Below are positions 44,028 to 59,219 of a stretch of DNA of 64,000 nucleotides, one piece after another (position 1 is the first letter of the stretch; the number at the start of each line of letters is the position of its first letter). The translations under genes were made by a program, and so were the position numbers. Under the pieces are notes generated by a model that was not told the DNA's origin, did not search any database, and was given only the letters and a program-made list of their open reading frames with translations. The stretch comes from Desulforegula conservatrix Mb1Pa (GTDB taxonomy: Bacteria > Desulfobacterota > Desulfobacteria > Desulfobacterales > Desulforegulaceae): positions 124,001 through 188,000 of the forward strand of contig NZ_AUEY01000001.1 of assembly GCF_000426225.1 (NCBI RefSeq). Direction: 5' to 3'.

Positions 44028-45680
44028 TCAGCCTTTTCTCTGTTTAAGATATTCAAGAGCCTGCCTTATAGGCAGCTGCACGGTGGACGGCCCGCTTCTT
44101 ATGTAAAAAGCCTCTTCGTTCTTGTTATTCAAAAAAACAGGATTCTTTGAAGGTTCGCAGGTAACCATTCCTACATTCCCATATTGAGTCCTGTAAAGAT
44201 TAAACCTGATATTTGGCACATGCTCAATTCCGATATGCTGGTGAATAAGATTTTTAAAATGGAGGCAGCATTTATCGTCATTTTCAAAAACATCCGCGTC
44301 AAGCCCAAGAATATTTCCGCCATCATCCACGCCAAGAAGAATGATCCCTCCTTCTGTGTTAAGGAATGCAACGACGGTTTTCAGCCATGCGATCTCAATC
44401 TCTTTACCTGGCTTTCCAGTATGAAGATTCATTCTCATGGTCGATTTAAACTCTAAATCTGCACCCTCCCCCTTTGATATAATCCTTAAGATATCATCAT
44501 CCTTTAACTGGCCGGAATCAAGAATAGAGGCGAGATCTTTTATTTGATGGCTGTATTTGTAAGCTATCATAAGAAAAAGAAAAATGCTTGCAAGAACTAT
44601 CGACCAGGCAATCAAAACAAACCCGACACCTCTGCCTGCTGCGAGATCGAAAAGATCAGGATCAGGAGCCACAATCCCAATAAGCATATCAAGTTTTCCT
44701 GAACTGACATAGGAAAGGGATGCCCAGTATTTTTCCCCTGAAAATTCAAAAGAAATGGAATCTGATGGTCTGCCTGAGCTGATCCATTTATTTGCGGCCA
44801 AAGCCTCATAATCGACAGCGAGATTTTGCTGGTTTGTAATATCTACAATATCAAATTTATTTTCGGCCTTTTCTTTTAAACTGGAAGCAGAAAACAGATA
44901 TTTTTTACCGTCAAAAAGAAAAGAGTCGACACCGCCAATTTTTATGGATTCGATCTGTCTAAAAAAATCACCAATCTGTACATCAACAGCCGCAACCATT
45001 ATTGCGGAGTTGCTTTCCGGCTTATGAAAAGCCACACTGAGCGTAGAAACCATTTCCTTGCCATAGGCAGGCACATAAGGCTTGTTCCAGACAGCCTCTC
45101 CAAAAGATTCTGATGCTTTTCTGTACCACAGGGGCTCTTTCAGAACCTCTTTTTCCCGGCTCATTTCAGGAGCTATGTTTTTAAACTTAAACTCCTTGCT
45201 CCACTCCTGAAGCTCGATAACGCCATCACCCCCACCCTTCAGTATAGCCACAGAATACCCATCAGGGCTATTGCGGATCATGAAAAACCCTCCGCCGTCA
45301 TCCGCGAACTTGAAAGCCCTTATCAGGGGGACAGCATCCATGACAGGACCGAGGAGAGACACCATGCCTTTTACATCTGATATTCTGAAAAACCCTTCTT
45401 TCCCCCACATTTTAAGCATCTGGGCATAAGAATTAAGATTATTTAAATCATTTGAAAGGGTCAGCCGCTTATTTTCAACCACATCTTTAAGTTTCATCTG
45501 GACATATGTTTTTTGAACCGCATTACCACGAAACCATAAAAGACCACCCATCAGAAACAATGCCGCAAAAAAAACCAGCAAAATGTCCCGGACGAGCTTT
45601 ACCCTGAACTTACGCTTTAAAAGATCCCCGGAAAACTGATCGTTATTCTTGTTTTTCAATCTCAATTCCTTGCAATTCAT
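44028..45680 (-). CDS. membrane sensor with dCache-like domain and cytoplasmic AlbA_2 (Schlafen-like) domain
   Basis: The 550-residue protein has membrane helices at about 30-50 and 352-374, framing an extracytoplasmic region of about 300 residues that looks like a Cache-type ligand-binding domain (FDGKKYLFSASSL, VDVQIGDFFRQIESI). The cytoplasmic part (about 400-545) is not a kinase, HAMP or GGDEF but an AlbA_2 domain. It has GADLEFKSTMR, then VAFLNTEGGIILLGVDDGG (the family signature), FKNLIHQHIG and FYIRSGPSTVQL. Family members bind nucleic acids or nucleotides, or act as nucleases, and are usually soluble. This fusion suggests a transmembrane-controlled nucleic-acid function. Sensor domain call is by general pattern only. 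Confidence 0.8.
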   Translation of the reverse strand: MNCKELRLKNKNNDQFSGDLLKRKFRVKLVRDILLVFFAALFLMGGLLWFRGNAVQKTYVQMKLKDVVENKRLTLSNDLNNLNSYAQMLKMWGKEGFFRISDVKGMVSLLGPVMDAVPLIRAFKFADDGGGFFMIRNSPDGYSVAILKGGGDGVIELQEWSKEFKFKNIAPEMSREKEVLKEPLWYRKASESFGEAVWNKPYVPAYGKEMVSTLSVAFHKPESNSAIMVAAVDVQIGDFFRQIESIKIGGVDSFLFDGKKYLFSASSLKEKAENKFDIVDITNQQNLAVDYEALAANKWISSGRPSDSISFEFSGEKYWASLSYVSSGKLDMLIGIVAPDPDLFDLAAGRGVGFVLIAWSIVLASIFLFLMIAYKYSHQIKDLASILDSGQLKDDDILRIISKGEGADLEFKSTMRMNLHTGKPGKEIEIAWLKTVVAFLNTEGGIILLGVDDGGNILGLDADVFENDDKCCLHFKNLIHQHIGIEHVPNIRFNLYRTQYGNVGMVTCEPSKNPVFLNNKNEEAFYIRSGPSTVQLPIRQALEYLKQRKG

Positions 45681-46088
45681 AAAATACGGAAATAATTAAA
45701 TGATAAAGATCCCAAAAGATCAATCTTGCCAATGCGTGCCAGTGTGATTGTCAGCTTAATTCCACTATACCGGATTTGTCATTTTTTTTTCATTACAAAT
45801 TACGCATGTCGAACCTGAAAAGTCGCAAAAAATCCGATTCTCGTCATTCCGGCTAGGCCGGAATCCATAAGTACCTGAAAGTAATGGATGCCGGATCAAG
45901 TCAGGCATGACGCTAAAGCTATTTTTAGACTTTTTGCGACTCCATCAAGACTGTCTATTTGAAAATCTTTTCCGGTAAATACGCTCCATAAATAAAAACA
46001 TGTTCGAAAAAACCATAATTGTATTATATTATTGTTTACTGAAGAAAGACAATAACCCTCCAACCAATCTGAGCCACACGGAGGCATG
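45681..46088. other. 408-bp intergenic region with repeat copy 3
   Basis: Between the divergently read sensor and cNMP genes. Holds family A copy 3 (45822-45948). An AT-rich stretch (46000-46045) that should include the cNMP gene promoter follows. No gene seen. Confidence 0.5.
45822..45948 (+). repeat. dispersed repeat family A, copy 3 (direct)
   Basis: Near-complete copy: left GTCGCAAAAAATCC, ATTCCGGCTAGGCCGGAAT hairpin core, GCCGGATCAAGTCAGGC second palindrome, right GACTTTTTGCGACTCCATCAA. Confidence 0.85.
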
Positions 46089-46580
46089 ATGGAATATGGC
46101 GGCATAGACCTTTTTAAAAGCCGGGAAATAATACTGGATCTCCTGATCGAAATCCAGCTGTTTCAAGAACTTACGCCCAAAGAACTCGAAATCATCTCAA
46201 AATACATGACGTTTTTCGAGATAAACGAAGGAGAAGCTCTTTTTCGTGAAGGAGACACAGGGGACTTCATGTGTTTTGTTGTAAAGGGAAGCGTGGATAT
46301 CCTGAAGGAATCCGCAAGCGGACGGACGGTCGTCATTGCCAATCTTGGAAGAGGAAGAAGCATAGGCGAGATGGCCATAATTGACAAGACGCCCAGATCA
46401 GCGACAGTGAAAGCAAAGACATTTACAACCCTTCTGGTTCTCTCAAGAAAGGGTTTTGATACAATAGTTGAAAAGCACCCTGGAATTGGAATTAAAATAC
46501 TTAAAGGACTTGCGAGGCTTCTAAGCCTTAATATGCGTGCGACTTCAAGCAAACTTGCGGATTATATGAATCCTATATAA
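46089..46580 (+). CDS. single-domain cyclic-nucleotide-binding protein
   Basis: The 163-residue protein is one CNB domain without a DNA-binding helix-turn-helix. It shows INEGEALFREGDTGDFMC (about 50-66), then VVKGSVDIL. The phosphate-binding cassette is GEMAIIDKTPRSATV with the Arg that contacts cyclic phosphate. The C-terminal helix is MRATSSKLADYM. I chose the second of two adjacent ATGs because GGAGG is four bases away rather than one. Predicted soluble regulator; whether it binds cAMP, cGMP or neither is unknown. It faces the RsbW-like gene convergently, 19 bp apart. Confidence 0.85.
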   Translation: MEYGGIDLFKSREIILDLLIEIQLFQELTPKELEIISKYMTFFEINEGEALFREGDTGDFMCFVVKGSVDILKESASGRTVVIANLGRGRSIGEMAIIDKTPRSATVKAKTFTTLLVLSRKGFDTIVEKHPGIGIKILKGLARLLSLNMRATSSKLADYMNPI

Positions 46581-46599: not shown

Positions 46600-47016
46600 T
46601 CATATCTTCTTGGTAAGAATTATTCGATTGCCTTTTTCATTAAAAAAACAAGAACTGAAATAACTCTTCATTATCGCCAGCCCCCTGCCTGATTCCTGAT
46701 CAGGTTCGGGAGCATCCATTTCCATAAGCTCCTTCCACACGAACCCTTCTCCCTGATCAATTATATCAAGCACGATGGAATCATCATCAAGATAGATATG
46801 ATATGCTACGAGCTTGGTGTCATCCGATCTGTTACCATGCCTTACCGCATTGGTAAGTGCCTCGCGCATTACAAGACAAATTGCAAAAGCATGGGAGCCA
46901 AGGCTCATGCGGGCCAGGAATTCCCTGGTGGCGGCATCAACCACATCGATATTTGACATGATGGACGAGAATTCAATTCTGAGCCCATAAGGCTCTTTTG
47001 TCATCTCAAAAACCAT
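46600..47016 (-). CDS. RsbW-like ATP-binding serine kinase (anti-sigma factor type)
   Basis: The 138-residue protein is a GHKL ATP-binding domain of the anti-sigma kinase type. The N-box MREALTNAVRHGN is at about 50-62, the G1 box IIDQGEGF at about 85-92, and the G2 box ESGRGLAIMKSYF at about 108-120. Such kinases phosphorylate a STAS antagonist and sequester a sigma factor or other partner. GGAG eight bases upstream of the ATG. It lies 68 bp after the REC-SpoIIE phosphatase on the same strand, the expected pairing. No STAS or sigma gene is present in the window. Confidence 0.85.
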   Translation of the reverse strand: MVFEMTKEPYGLRIEFSSIMSNIDVVDAATREFLARMSLGSHAFAICLVMREALTNAVRHGNRSDDTKLVAYHIYLDDDSIVLDIIDQGEGFVWKELMEMDAPEPDQESGRGLAIMKSYFSSCFFNEKGNRIILTKKI

Positions 47017-47084
47017 ATAAAAACTCCGGATTTGTCATTTGTGGAAATATGGCCGCAAAGTGATTATAAACAAAAAACTGCGGA

Positions 47085-48215
47085 TCAGACTTCAAAGCCA
47101 AGGATAGCCATGTCATCCTCTGGTATAAAATCATCTCCGAAAATATCTGTGATGATCTTTCTGGGAGCTGAAGAAATTTCAGTATCTTTTGCATTCGCGC
47201 ATGCTTCAGCAAAAAATTTTGCGCCTTCAGACCACATAACCCTTCGCTTGCTGGATTCGGTAACTCCATCGGAATACAGATAAAACCTGTCGCCTACAGA
47301 TACGTCGATCACCTCACTTCCGAAATAGACGTCCTTAAAAAGGCCAAGAATATCGCCTTCAAGATTTATAAGCCTTACTTCTCCTGAAACAGACACATAA
47401 ACCACAGGAGGATGTCCGCAGCTTACAATAATCACCTGCTTGGTCCTTCTGTTCAGTCTGACATAAGAAGCAGTCAAATATTTGCCTTCTGGAAGTATTT
47501 CGGATAGCACGTCATTTATCATCTTCATGCTTTCCATAGGCTGATAAACAGTATTGCAGTTCTGTCTCAGGAGGGCTTTGACTGAAGAAGTCATATAACT
47601 GGTTTTTATGTCGTGACCTGAAAAATCCGCCACAAAATAACTGAAAATATTTTCTGATATTCTGAGAACATCATAGAAATCCCCGCCTGCTTCTTCCAGG
47701 GCCTTGTAATAAACACCGAATTTTGCTTCTGGCAGCATCTCAGGATACGCGAGCATGGATTTCTGAGCTTCTTTTATCTGCTTTAGCTTGGAAGCCTGAC
47801 TTGCGATAAGGGAGTTTGTCGCAATGGACATCTTCAGATGAAGCCTTACCCTGGCAAGTACTTCAAGGGCTTGAAAAGGCTTAATGATATAGTCAACTGC
47901 GCCGAGTTCAAAACCTGTCAGCTTAGAATCAAGTTCAGATTGGCCGGTCAAAAAGATAACAGGTATTGAAGTGGTGGATGAATGATTCTTGAGATATTTA
48001 ATTACTGAAAAGCCATCCTCTCCTGGCATAACTATATCGAGAAGAATCAGATCAGGCCTTTTCTGGACAGCCTCTATTTTAGCAGCAGCAGCATCCTTGG
48101 CCTTGTATACCGTATATCCTTCCTTGGACAGAACTGTGGAAATATAGGTCAGGTTCACAGGGTTATCATCAACCGCGAGTATGCTATATCCTTGGGTTTC
48201 ATTATTTGAAGTCAT
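47085..48215 (-). CDS. response regulator with SpoIIE/RsbU-type PP2C phosphatase domain
   Basis: The 376 residues contain a receiver domain (5-125; acidic pair VDDNP, acceptor Asp60 in LLDIVMPGEDG, Lys in YIIKPF). A short coiled-coil linker (about 130-165) follows. The PP2C-type phosphatase domain has MLPEAKFGVYYKALEEAGGDFYD, VADFSGHDIKTS, and the metal/catalytic GDRFYLYSDGVTESSKRR. Its role in partner switching is to dephosphorylate a STAS protein when the receiver is phosphorylated. It is paired with the RsbW-like gene and followed upstream by an HPt gene, consistent with one pathway. Confidence 0.92.
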   Translation of the reverse strand: MTSNNETQGYSILAVDDNPVNLTYISTVLSKEGYTVYKAKDAAAAKIEAVQKRPDLILLDIVMPGEDGFSVIKYLKNHSSTTSIPVIFLTGQSELDSKLTGFELGAVDYIIKPFQALEVLARVRLHLKMSIATNSLIASQASKLKQIKEAQKSMLAYPEMLPEAKFGVYYKALEEAGGDFYDVLRISENIFSYFVADFSGHDIKTSYMTSSVKALLRQNCNTVYQPMESMKMINDVLSEILPEGKYLTASYVRLNRRTKQVIIVSCGHPPVVYVSVSGEVRLINLEGDILGLFKDVYFGSEVIDVSVGDRFYLYSDGVTESSKRRVMWSEGAKFFAEACANAKDTEISSAPRKIITDIFGDDFIPEDDMAILGFEV

Positions 48216-48419
48216 AAGAAACTGTTTTTCGCTTTTTTAAAATTGGTCATGGAACTCCGGACTCCCAGACAGTCATTCCCTTAAAAAACAAAAAGCCGAA
48301 TAAATCAAAAATTATGTCATAAGTGAAATAATATTAACTGGGAGCGAGATAAATCTTTGGGCCTTCCGATAGCTCCGGTCTTTAGATCAGGGCAAAGTAC
48401 CTTGATACAACTCAGGTGA

Positions 48420-48734
48420 TCAGGAAATGACAACTTTAATCTTTTCGATCTCGCAGGAAATATTCACTGAATAAGAATCAAGATCCGTAAGATCGCTTTT
48501 CCTGGCATTTTGCTCGATCCTTGATGCGAGGTCAGCTATTGCAGAAAAGCCGAGATTTCCCGAAGATCCCTTGAGTGAGTGCGCTGCTTCTGCAACCGCC
48601 TTGGAATCACTCACGCTAAGAGCATTATTGAGTTTCTGAATATCTTCTTCTGCAGAAGACACAAAAATATCCACAAGCTCCATGAACTCTTCTTTTTCAA
48701 GTCCAAGCCTTGCTCCCATTTCTTCAAAATCCAT
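48420..48734 (-). CDS. stand-alone HPt (histidine phosphotransfer) domain protein
   Basis: The 104-residue protein is one helical HPt domain with the phosphorylatable His52 in EAAHSLKGSSGNLGFSAIADL. It starts MDFEEMGARLGLEKEEF, and AAGGAG lies 8 bases upstream of ATG. It lies 204 bp upstream of the REC-SpoIIE gene on the same strand. HPt proteins relay phosphate between a hybrid kinase receiver and an output receiver. The REC-SpoIIE protein downstream is the obvious candidate. Its kinase donor is not identified. Confidence 0.9.
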   Translation of the reverse strand: MDFEEMGARLGLEKEEFMELVDIFVSSAEEDIQKLNNALSVSDSKAVAEAAHSLKGSSGNLGFSAIADLASRIEQNARKSDLTDLDSYSVNISCEIEKIKVVIS

Positions 48735-49200: not shown

Positions 49201-50118
49201 ATGGATATATTGATATTACTAAAGGCATGTGCCGACGAAACCAGAATCAGACTGCTTAACATCCTCATAAACCATGAGCTCAGCGTCAATGAAATAGTGG
49301 ACATGATGGGCATGGGCCAGTCAAGGATATCAAGGCATCTCAAAATCCTTCTTGATGCAGGCCTTCTGAAATGCAGAAGGGACGGAGTATGGGCTTTTTA
49401 TTCAGGTTCAACGTCAGGGCCCGGCAAATTCTTTATTGAAGCAATGCTACCCATGTTGTCAAAAGATGAGGCCCTCAAGAAAGACCTTGTAACGGCATCT
49501 GCAATTATTGAGGAAAGAACCAAGACGGCCAGACAGTTTTTTAATAAAATTGCGGGGCAATGGGACAGACTGAAAAGCGAAATACTCGGAGGCTTTAACC
49601 TTAGCAAGGCGATTGCCGATCTCGCTCCTGAATGCGATAAAGCGGCAGATCTTGGCTGCGGAACAGGCGATCTGTTAACCGCCCTAAAATCCAAGGCTCA
49701 AAAGATCATAGGAGTCGACAGCTCTTCTGAAATGCTGAAAGAGGCAAGGACAAGACTGGAATCAGCCGGAAATGAAAAAGCTGATTTAAGGCTCGGAGAA
49801 CTTGAATACCTGCCGCTCAGAGACAAAGAAGTCTCTCTGGCTGTTTCATCCATGGCTCTTCACCATATCCAGAACCCAGTGCAGGCAATAAAAGAAGCAG
49901 GCAGAATTCTTGAAAAAGACGGAACATTCATAATAGCCGAATATGGAAAACACTCAGATGAATCAATGCGCCAGAAATACGGCGATCTCTGGTTAGGCTT
50001 TCATACTGATGAAATTAAATACTGGCTCGAGGATGCCGGATTCAGACTGTCCGGCATAGAAACCTATGAGCTTAAAAACCACATCAAAATAAATATTTAT
50101 AAATCAATAAAAAACTGA
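49201..50118 (+). CDS. ArsR-family regulator fused to a SAM-dependent methyltransferase domain (SahR-like)
   Basis: The 305-residue protein has an N-terminal ArsR winged helix (1-95), which opens with ACADETRIRLLNILI and continues through SVNEIVDMMGMGQSRISRHLKIL and LKCRRDGVWAFYSG. A class I methyltransferase domain follows (about 145-290), with AADLGCGTGDLLTALKSKA, IGVDSSSEMLKEA and LAVSSMALHHIQNPVQAIKEAGRI. Known family: SahR in Deltaproteobacteria is an ArsR regulator of the SAM cycle, next to ahcY, responding to S-adenosylhomocysteine. Here it is 22 bp upstream of ahcY. The methyltransferase fold may act as the SAH/SAM sensor. Identity as SahR is by context. Confidence 0.83.
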   Translation: MDILILLKACADETRIRLLNILINHELSVNEIVDMMGMGQSRISRHLKILLDAGLLKCRRDGVWAFYSGSTSGPGKFFIEAMLPMLSKDEALKKDLVTASAIIEERTKTARQFFNKIAGQWDRLKSEILGGFNLSKAIADLAPECDKAADLGCGTGDLLTALKSKAQKIIGVDSSSEMLKEARTRLESAGNEKADLRLGELEYLPLRDKEVSLAVSSMALHHIQNPVQAIKEAGRILEKDGTFIIAEYGKHSDESMRQKYGDLWLGFHTDEIKYWLEDAGFRLSGIETYELKNHIKINIYKSIKN

Positions 50119-50140
50119 AACTTTTTAAGGAGACGCCAAA

Positions 50141-51568
50141 ATGTCATTTATGGAACTTGACCTCAACATGAAATATAAAGTTGCGGATATGGGACAGGCT
50201 GATTTCGGAAGAAAAGAAATGCAGCTCGCTGAAAACGAAATGCCGGGCCTGATGGCTTGCAGAAAAGAATACGGAACAACAAAACCACTCAAAGGCCTCA
50301 GGATCACAGGCAGCCTGCACATGACCATCCAGACCGCGATGCTTATTGAAACCCTCACAGAGCTCGGGGCTGACGTTAGGTGGGCATCATGCAATATATT
50401 CTCAACCCAGGATCATGCTGCGGCTGCAATTGCTGCAAAAGGAACCGCCGCTGTATTTGCATGGAAGGGCGAAAGCCTTGAAGAATACTGGTGGTGCACT
50501 GAGCAGGCTCTTCTCTGGCCTGACGGAAGCGGCCCAGACCTTATAGTTGATGACGGCGGAGACGCCACACTTCTCGTGCATGAAGGAGTAAGAGCAGAAA
50601 AAGATTCTTCTATCCTTGACCGCACGCCTTCAAATCATGAAGAAAAATGCATACTTGACAGACTCAAGGAATCCCTGAAAAAAGATCCTCAGAAGTGGAC
50701 CCGCATCGCTGCAAAAATAAAAGGCGTTTCAGAGGAAACAACCACAGGTGTTGGCCGTCTGTATCAGCTTCAGAAGAGCGGCGGGCTTCTTTTCCCTGCA
50801 ATCAACGTAAATGACTCCGTAACAAAATCGAAATTTGACAACCTATATGGATGCAAGGAATCCCTTGCGGATGGTATCAAAAGAGCCACGGACATCATGA
50901 TAGCAGGCAAGACCGTTGTTGTTGCAGGGTACGGAGATGTCGGCAAAGGCTGCGCCAATTCCATGAAAGGATACGGAGCACGCGTTCTTGTAACCGAGAT
51001 AGATCCCATCTGTGCTCTCCAGGCCTCAATGAGCGGATATCAGGTCGTGACAATGGAAGAAGCTGCTCCAATGGGCGATATTTTTGTGACAGCCACAGGT
51101 AATTACAACGTAATAACAGGCGCCCATATGGAACAGATGAGAAATGAAGCCATTGTCTGCAATATCGGTCACTTTGACAATGAGATAGACATGGCCTACC
51201 TCCTTTCCACACCAGAATGCACATGCATGAATATTAAACCCCAGGTTGACAAATGGACCCTGAAATCAGGCAGATCAATCATCATCCTTGCCGAAGGAAG
51301 GCTTGTAAACCTTGGATGCGCGACCGGACACCCAAGCTTTGTAATGAGCACAAGCTTCACAAACCAGACTCTCGCCCAAATTGAACTTGCTACTAACAAA
51401 AATCTTGAGAAAAAGGTCTATACATTAAGCAAAAAACTTGATGAGGAAGTTGCAAGACTCCACCTTGGAAGGCTTGGCGTTAATCTCACCAAACTTACAA
51501 AGGAACAGGCTGACTATCTTGGATTAAGTGTTGACGGCCCTTACAAGCCAGAACATTACAGATATTAA
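50141..51568 (+). CDS. ahcY: adenosylhomocysteinase
   Basis: Hydrolyses S-adenosylhomocysteine to adenosine and homocysteine, relieving inhibition of methyltransferases. The 475 residues, typical length, show [20 protein letters not shown], the [20 protein letters not shown] active-site region, and the NAD-binding [38 protein letters not shown] follows, and the C-terminal stretch [11 protein letters not shown] closes the NAD site of the partner subunit. It has an AAGGAGA ribosome site. It is co-transcribed with the SahR-like gene and ends at the terminator at 51663. No SAH riboswitch-like structure is evident before it. Confidence 0.98.
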
Positions 51569-58603: not shown

Positions 58604-59026
58604 CTACTCTTTTAATAAATGCGCCATCACGAGAGCAAATGACTTACGGTTACTGTCCCATAGCAGAAATCTGGAAACAAGCTCTGGTCGAACCCACTGA
58701 AAACCGAGATGCTCATCCGACAAAAAAACCGCGTCAGAATGAACCTTGACAAGAAAAATCCTTTTCCTCAGATCCATGTCATTCTCAGGGATTTCCACCT
58801 GAAAAAAAGGAGCAACAATATTCAAATCATCCAGCCTGATCTCAATTCCGGTCTCTTCCCGTACCTCTCGTAAACATGCGGTCTCATGGGTTTCAGAAGG
58901 TTCTACTCCGCCAGTTACAGGCTGCCAGTATATGCCGTGTTTTACAGTAACAGGACATTTAAGAAGCAAAAAACCTTTTAATTCAACATTGTAAATCCAG
59001 CATTCTATGCTGTTTTTAATCCGCAT
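58604..59026 (-). CDS. NUDIX hydrolase
   Basis: The 140-residue protein has the NUDIX box GGVEPSETHETACLREVREETGI (about 37-59; G-x5-E-x7-R-E-x-x-E-E-x-G), so pyrophosphohydrolase activity on a nucleoside-diphosphate-type substrate is expected. It starts at the ATG at 59026, preceded by AAGGTG. A longer in-frame start would run into repeat copy 6 and was rejected. The C-terminus FLLWDSNRKSFALVMAHLLKE does not identify the substrate. It is bracketed by copies 5 and 6 of repeat family A in opposite orientation. Confidence 0.85.
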   Translation of the reverse strand: MRIKNSIECWIYNVELKGFLLLKCPVTVKHGIYWQPVTGGVEPSETHETACLREVREETGIEIRLDDLNIVAPFFQVEIPENDMDLRKRIFLVKVHSDAVFLSDEHLGFQWVRPELVSRFLLWDSNRKSFALVMAHLLKE

Positions 59027-59082
59027 TAAGGACACCTTATAATTATTTATTAAGAAGCGGTGAAAAGGACGCCTATTCAATC

Positions 59083-59219
59083 TTGACGAAGTAGCAAAAA
59101 GTCCGATTATCGTCATTCCGGCGCAGGCCGCAATCCGGAAGTGTCTGAAAATACAAAGATGCCTTATCAAGTCCGGCATAACGCCGAAGCCATTTTATAG
59201 CTTTTTGCGAGACCATCAA
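59083..59219 (+). repeat. dispersed repeat family A, copy 6 (direct)
   Basis: One of the best-preserved copies: TTGACGAAGTAGCAAAAAG left, ATTCCGGCGCAGGCCGCAAT core, CTTTTTGCGAGACCATCAA right, flanked by TCAATCTT on both sides. Confidence 0.85.

Follow-up and report, generated by a model that had tools for sequence, protein, structure and literature searches.

In the current analysis of a 64,000-nucleotide stretch of the Desulforegula conservatrix Mb1Pa genome (the window), we have identified a membrane receptor, P0001, in which a domain related to Schlafen and SAMD9 takes the place of the usual signalling enzyme. The receptor class with a Schlafen-type output to which it belongs is widespread and is new to the open literature searched.

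Domain organisation of the receptor

The gene and its parts are given below with the evidence for each.

44028..45680, minus strand: whole gene of P0001, 550 residues, with the order TM1 - dCache sensor - TM2 - AlbA_2 (open reading frame, Pfam, AlphaFold2)
45531..45584, minus strand: first transmembrane helix (TM1), residues about 33-50 (sequence ILLVFFAALFLMGGLLWF and AlphaFold2 helix 17-94)
44628..45530, minus strand: extracytoplasmic double-Cache (dCache) sensor, residues about 51-351 (Foldseek to dCache receptors of the PDB, weak dCache_1 matches in orthologues, alignment columns)
44556..44621, minus strand: second transmembrane helix (TM2), residues about 354-375, or about 352-376, and after it a short juxtamembrane linker that lacks HAMP (sequence, AlphaFold2 helix 351-386, Pfam)
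44034..44498, minus strand: cytoplasmic SLFN_AlbA_2 domain, residues 395-549 (Pfam, AlphaFold2, Foldseek to the SAMD9 tRNase domain and SLFN cores)

The plus strand over 44028-45680 is dense in stop codons. An earlier sequence-only reading had proposed two membrane helices framing a large extracytoplasmic sensor, followed by an AlbA_2 domain with intact core motifs where a kinase, cyclase or chemoreceptor output would be expected. This layout is borne out, on the minus strand, by the AlphaFold2 model, the Foldseek comparisons and Pfam. Residues 405-536 have been assigned to SLFN_AlbA_2 (PF04326) over positions 1-117 of the 118 of the model (E=3.4e-20), the score of 73.2 bits lying above the curated cut-off of 25.3, and the motifs DLEFKST and FLNTEGGIILLGVDD are both present. 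HAMP, kinase, cyclase and chemoreceptor domains are not found in P0001 by Pfam. Searches of P0001 against NCBIfam, of its single sequence against the PDB and of the region around the gene against Rfam gave no match. The source genome encodes one AlbA_2 gene, which was recovered again by a genome-wide search.

No clear ribosome-binding site precedes the annotated ATG of the gene. Seven codons into the frame from there, a TTG is preceded by AAGGA at a distance of a few bases, and judged from this signal it may be the true start of P0001.

The dCache sensor

None of the Pfam Cache models scores above threshold in P0001 itself, and its orthologues (L021-L023) have weak dCache_1 matches with E-values from 6e-8 to 3e-4. 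The AlphaFold2 model, generated from an alignment of 42 homologues, has a pLDDT of 84.4, and its best match in the PDB by Foldseek is Mlp24 of Vibrio (6ioq, TM-score 0.79 normalised to the target), with Tlp3 of Campylobacter also matched. The region is predicted to consist of two PAS-like Cache subdomains with a long N-terminal helix, placed between the two transmembrane helices, as is typical of dCache sensors. The Cache assignment raised by the sequence-only reading is hence supported by the predicted structure, and by profile in the orthologues only. The YDPRxRPWF motif of the relatives is degenerate in the sensor of P0001, with W185 and D233 retained in the alignment columns.

P0001 has the sensor fold and topology of the dCache chemoreceptors, kinases and cyclases, Mlp24 and Tlp3 included, but differs from them in its AlbA_2 output and in the absence of HAMP. 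In relatives, class III cyclases (L027, L028 and L030) and a histidine kinase (L029) have dCache parts that the sensor region of P0001 matches in sequence, which suggests that AlbA_2 substitutes for these standard outputs.

Distribution of the AlbA_2 subfamily

A profile of the AlbA_2 domain was scanned against 84,980 species genomes, with a retrieval motif that included both glutamates of the carboxylate triad described below, and 348 relatives of the subfamily were confirmed. The best 80 of these 348 are spread over about ten bacterial phyla and the archaea. Three genomes of the order-level set of 40 encode the same full-length layout, and in three others the subfamily follows a REC domain, an SBP_bac_3 domain with a transmembrane segment, or multiple transmembrane segments. 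In the phylum-level set the subfamily is found in 23 of 297 genomes at E-values below 1e-30. Matches on mobile DNA number two on plasmids, none in phages and three on viral contigs.

On a tree of 93 AlbA_2 domains, 62 relatives have the dCache layout with two transmembrane helices, where the dCache label was assigned from length, topology and similarity of sequence, with Pfam run on a handful only. As the layout is shared by 62 of the 93 sampled relatives, its origin by chance in P0001 is excluded. These records come from Thermodesulfobacteriota, Myxococcota/Deltaproteobacteria, Pseudomonadota (mainly Chromatiaceae), Kiritimatiellota, Krumholzibacteriota, Planctomycetota, Acidobacteriota, Aminicenantes and Cloacimonadota. 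The architecture had been thought unusual; with 348 relatives in the subfamily, and dCache as its commonest partner (L021-L023 and most of L031-L097), it is instead a common one, and not already characterised in the open literature searched. Searches of the open literature for AlbA_2, Schlafen or AAA_4 domains in response regulators, Cache proteins, sensors and anti-phage systems returned no description, which does not prove absence. In Marichromatium bheemlicum the AlbA_2 gene is flanked by repetitive open reading frames (RNAQSTTTRIET) beside apparent cas genes (L036:9600-12700), which are probably a CRISPR array.

AlbA_2, very probably an exchangeable output of signalling proteins

Apart from dCache, the subfamily has been identified in fusion with a variety of sensory domains. 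REC-AlbA_2 proteins have been recognised by Pfam in L024, L086 and L100 and elsewhere by similarity, and one protein (L093) continues from REC-AlbA_2 into a Ser/Thr kinase. Four Bacteroidota (L096, L099, L106 and L108) encode fusions with a CRP-type cNMP_binding domain, L026 encodes SBP_bac_3-TM-AlbA_2, and fusions with multiple transmembrane segments are mostly archaeal (L098, L107, L109 and L110). The domain is thus recurrently fused to different sensory inputs, as expected of an output domain. REC-AlbA_2 genes immediately follow hybrid histidine kinases in L092, L093, L095 and L104; the verrucomicrobial operons L092 and L104 have the order REC-cyclase, dCache-HAMP-histidine kinase-REC and REC-AlbA_2. 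As to switches of architecture, REC may have arisen twice on the tree, but the starred branches force just one origin.

The mean pairwise identity among 42 dCache members is 23% in the sensor and 52% in the AlbA_2 domain, a pattern of variable input and constant output. We consider it very probable that AlbA_2 is the signalling output, and the suggestion of an undescribed signalling output is strengthened by these modular fusions and by the literature search. Dimers are the usual working form of dCache receptors, of REC and of CRP-type domains. With such input modules, and with the coiled-coil-like linkers of the REC-AlbA_2 proteins, the output is probably controlled through a change in a dimer.

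Genes for SBP_bac_3 lipoproteins lie beside dCache-AlbA_2 genes in six genomes of Desulfobulbaceae type (L051, L062-L065 and L074). Adjacency in these six together with the fusion in L026 suggests a natural fusion pair in which the binding protein would supply the receptor with ligand. Kef-type antiporter genes (Na_H_Exchanger and TrkA_N) are situated directly upstream in L062, L070 and L089 and adjoin the gene in L026, and universal stress proteins are encoded near AlbA_2 genes in L034, L070, L084 and L089. These neighbours hint at a role in ion, electrophile or envelope stress.

Fold, carboxylate triad and likely activity

The AlphaFold2 model of the AlbA_2 domain alone has a pLDDT of 94.3 and a pTM of 0.89. 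The top Foldseek matches are, in order, SAMD9 with DNA, the SAMD9 tRNase domain, DIP2311 of Corynebacterium, a RecG-related domain and SLFN14/13/12/5/11, the TM-scores to the SAMD9 structures being moderate (0.43-0.59). A profile of the domain matches SLFN13 in the PDB (5yd0, E=2e-8), as well as SLFN14, 12, 11 and 5. In this alignment the E/E/D carboxylate triad of the Schlafens is intact in P0001, each residue being assigned from the profile alignment to 5yd0 and from conservation.

44466..44468, minus strand: E405, first triad residue, equivalent to E205 of SLFN13
44451..44453, minus strand: E410 (EFK motif), second triad residue, equivalent to E210 of SLFN13
44322..44324, minus strand: D453 (GVDD motif), third triad residue, equivalent to D248 of SLFN13

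Among 81 sequences fetched by motif, D453 is conserved in 99% and E405 and E410 in 100%, the latter by construction since the retrieval motif contains both glutamates. The subfamily set fetched by profile is a fairer test and has E405 and E410 in 22 of 22 sequences and D453 in 21 of 22, with a glutamate in the exception. Within PF04326 at large, P0001 belongs to a subfamily that serves as output of membrane and soluble sensors and has a motif of its own, EFKSTxRxNLxTGK, with R416, K434, D469 and R528 near-invariant. The E...EFK pattern occurs commonly in AlbA_2 domains at large and is therefore not diagnostic of catalysis.

Cleavage of RNA by SLFN13 depends on the triad E205/E210/D248 (PMC5862951). 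SLFN5 keeps the triad and does not cleave tRNA, so that the triad alone is insufficient for a tRNase (PMC8789055). E196 and D241 are two of the acidic residues with a catalytic role in SAMD9 (PMC12331169); these are 45 apart as against 43 for E410-D453, a likeness which we take as a lead only. The two-lobed, pseudo-dimeric core of the Schlafens is not seen in P0001, which has one AlbA_2 match, and a homodimer could stand in for the second lobe. The CHCC zinc finger is absent, as the cysteines of the domain are C471, C472 and C508 only, among which C508 alone is conserved above 80%. No tRNA-repair or toxin-antitoxin partner is seen. On the strength of fold and alignment, we place the likelihood that the AlbA_2 output is a nuclease slightly short of even.

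CadC and ToxR are membrane-bound one-component regulators that combine an external sensor and a cytoplasmic domain acting on nucleic acid in one chain. P0001 is like them in joining an external sensor to a cytoplasmic domain that probably acts on nucleic acid, and unlike them in that sensor and output are both unrelated to theirs and the triad suggests catalysis. The AlbA_2 domain might nevertheless bind DNA or RNA without cutting it, in which case P0001 would be a membrane-tethered regulator of the CadC/ToxR kind, the REC-AlbA_2 proteins would be response regulators of an unusual type and the cNMP-AlbA_2 proteins analogues of CRP. The outputs usually driven by REC and by CRP-type cNMP domains, both fused to the subfamily, bind nucleic acid, and the top fold match is SAMD9 bound to DNA. 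SLFN5, with its triad, just binds (PMC8789055), and the literature on pAgo takes AlbA_2 as DNA-binding (PMC6299218). Against this, the domain is slightly acidic, with a mean net charge of -2.3, which is atypical of a nucleic-acid binder and counts against a nuclease as well, although this refers to overall charge and not to local patches. No helix-turn-helix is found, and an identity of about 52% over about ten phyla, including numerous invariant residues of acidic or polar character, is more readily reconciled with an enzyme than with a sequence-specific binder. Binding without cleavage is, on balance, a rather unlikely account.

The triad could also serve other chemistry, for instance hydrolysis of a nucleotide second messenger. 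Consistent with this are the REC-cyclase, histidine kinase and REC-AlbA_2 genes in one operon (L092 and L104), the cNMP_binding-AlbA_2 fusions, the cNMP-binding gene adjoining that of P0001, six class III cyclase matches in the source genome, and the acidity of the domain. The nearest folds, however, act on nucleic acids, and class III cyclases are found in 13 of 23 subfamily-positive genomes of the phylum against 212 of the 274 others (odds ratio 0.38, p=0.04), so that second-messenger hydrolysis appears improbable. The narrower idea of a cNMP phosphodiesterase was rejected, as the subfamily is not enriched in the cyclase-bearing genomes of the phylum.

Genomic neighbourhood

The nearest neighbour of the P0001 gene is divergent.

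46086..46580, plus strand: stand-alone cNMP_binding protein, 164 residues (Pfam, E=4.1e-23)

It is a possible functional partner of P0001. The two genes are separated by 405 bp, and this gap contains a palindromic repeat at 45810-45945, upstream of the P0001 gene, with flanks AGTCGCAAAAA/TTTTTGCGACT and sequence of the GTCATTCCGG...CCGGAATC type between them. The open reading frame called at 58604-59179 (MPDLIRHLCIFRHFRIAACAGMTIIGL) is apparently a translated copy of a similar repeat.

Beyond the cNMP-binding gene, an Hpt protein, a REC-SpoIIE phosphatase and an RsbW-like HATPase are encoded in a row on the minus strand (46600-48734). They make up a compact partner-switch module with no obvious STAS antagonist adjoining. 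Further on (49201-51568), an ArsR-type HTH is fused to a SAM methyltransferase by Pfam, and what follows at 50141-51568 is, judged by eye, apparently an adenosylhomocysteinase; the fusion protein is probably a regulator of the SAM/SAH cycle with the adenosylhomocysteinase as its target.

The sequence-only reading had tied P0001 to the cNMP-binding and partner-switch genes. None of the cNMP-binding, RsbW-like, REC-SpoIIE and Hpt genes recurs next to the relatives examined, and this link is not conserved beside dCache-AlbA_2 genes. A homologue of the window HATPase was not matched near the relatives, nor was a conserved HATPase_c_2/SpoIIE linkage. Apparent REC-SpoIIE homologues near relatives were matched through REC, and those checked (L092, L104 and L069) are REC-cyclases and a REC-kinase. 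The association of cNMP with AlbA_2 survives as a distant hint through the direct fusions in Bacteroidota.

These observations bear on the view of AlbA_2 as a mere protein-protein or dimerisation module that signals to a partner such as the RsbW-like kinase or the SpoIIE phosphatase. The partner-switch genes are less than 3 kb away in the window, but relatives do not share this neighbouring module, and the dCache members have no partner gene in common; we give this view little credence.

Animal Schlafen and SAMD9 proteins are antiviral, and P0001 could be conceived as an effector of defence or abortive infection that responds to phage attack through a signal from the envelope. Members of its AlbA_2 subfamily are fused to GmrSD_N (L105:118-2376) and, in a Chloroflexi MAG, to BrxL (L076:2058-4076); a further GmrSD_N-AlbA_2 gene (L147:4162-6471), recognised by sequence, lies close to an integrase on a viral contig. 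The output domain is thereby common to signalling and defence-type proteins. On the tree, however, the dCache members cluster apart from the defence fusions. P0001 has no match in PADLOC, which gives it no place in a listed anti-phage system, its chromosomal surroundings are of a housekeeping kind, and hardly any members of the subfamily occur on plasmids, in phages or on viral contigs. This copy was on these grounds rejected as a defence element, the earlier suggestion of such a role being dropped, and an effector of the kind described is very improbable indeed.

Comparison with known systems

The core endoribonuclease of SLFN13 (5yd0) agrees with P0001 in the aligned triad E205/E210/D248 and in its related fold. 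P0001 differs in having one AlbA_2 lobe instead of two, in being without the CHCC zinc finger and in being a membrane-anchored receptor. The closest fold in the PDB to its AlbA_2 domain is the tRNase domain of SAMD9/SAMD9L (7ksp and 9o0d), which are tRNases with a single AlbA_2 domain (PMC12331169). SAMD9 is a cytosolic protein of the STAND type, unlike the receptor P0001. The PUCH complex of C. elegans (TOFU-1/TOFU-2/SLFL-3) is a membrane-anchored Schlafen-domain nuclease with a transmembrane subunit (PMC10567574); unlike P0001, it is a heterotrimer, is involved in piRNA processing and is without an extracellular ligand sensor.

Proposed mechanism

We propose that P0001 is a one-component membrane receptor whose dCache sensor would bind an external ligand, the two membrane helices relaying the ligand-induced change to the cytoplasmic AlbA_2 domain. 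This domain would itself be the output, in place of a kinase, cyclase or chemoreceptor domain, and in other proteins the same subfamily would be driven by phosphorylation of REC, by binding of a cyclic nucleotide or by a periplasmic binding domain. The output would most likely be an endoribonuclease like those of Schlafen and SAMD9 and dependent on metal, its on and off states set by how two AlbA_2 subunits face each other, and in the presence of the signal translation may be lowered or RNA processed. As a whole, this model of a ligand-gated, membrane-tethered receptor with a dimer-switched endoribonuclease output seems to us evenly poised between right and wrong. The broader proposition is tentative and more doubtful: an undescribed class of bacterial and archaeal receptors in which ligand, phosphorylation or cyclic nucleotide directly switches Schlafen-type RNA cleavage without a kinase, a second messenger or a transcription factor.

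Significance

The outputs usually listed for bacterial signalling proteins are kinases, cyclases, c-di-GMP enzymes, chemoreceptors and DNA-binding domains. The main survey of Cache domains reported known outputs only, bar one family, and as its models were seeded from proteins with outputs already listed, receptors with an AlbA_2 output could have escaped it (PMC4822843). The class is open to experiment in cultured carriers, among them Marichromatium gracile DSM 203 and Desulfogranum mediterraneum DSM 13871. If AlbA_2 acts on RNA, the sensing of ligands at the membrane would be tied directly to RNA metabolism, and everyday signalling in bacteria would use the same output domain as the Schlafen and SAMD9 nucleases of animals.
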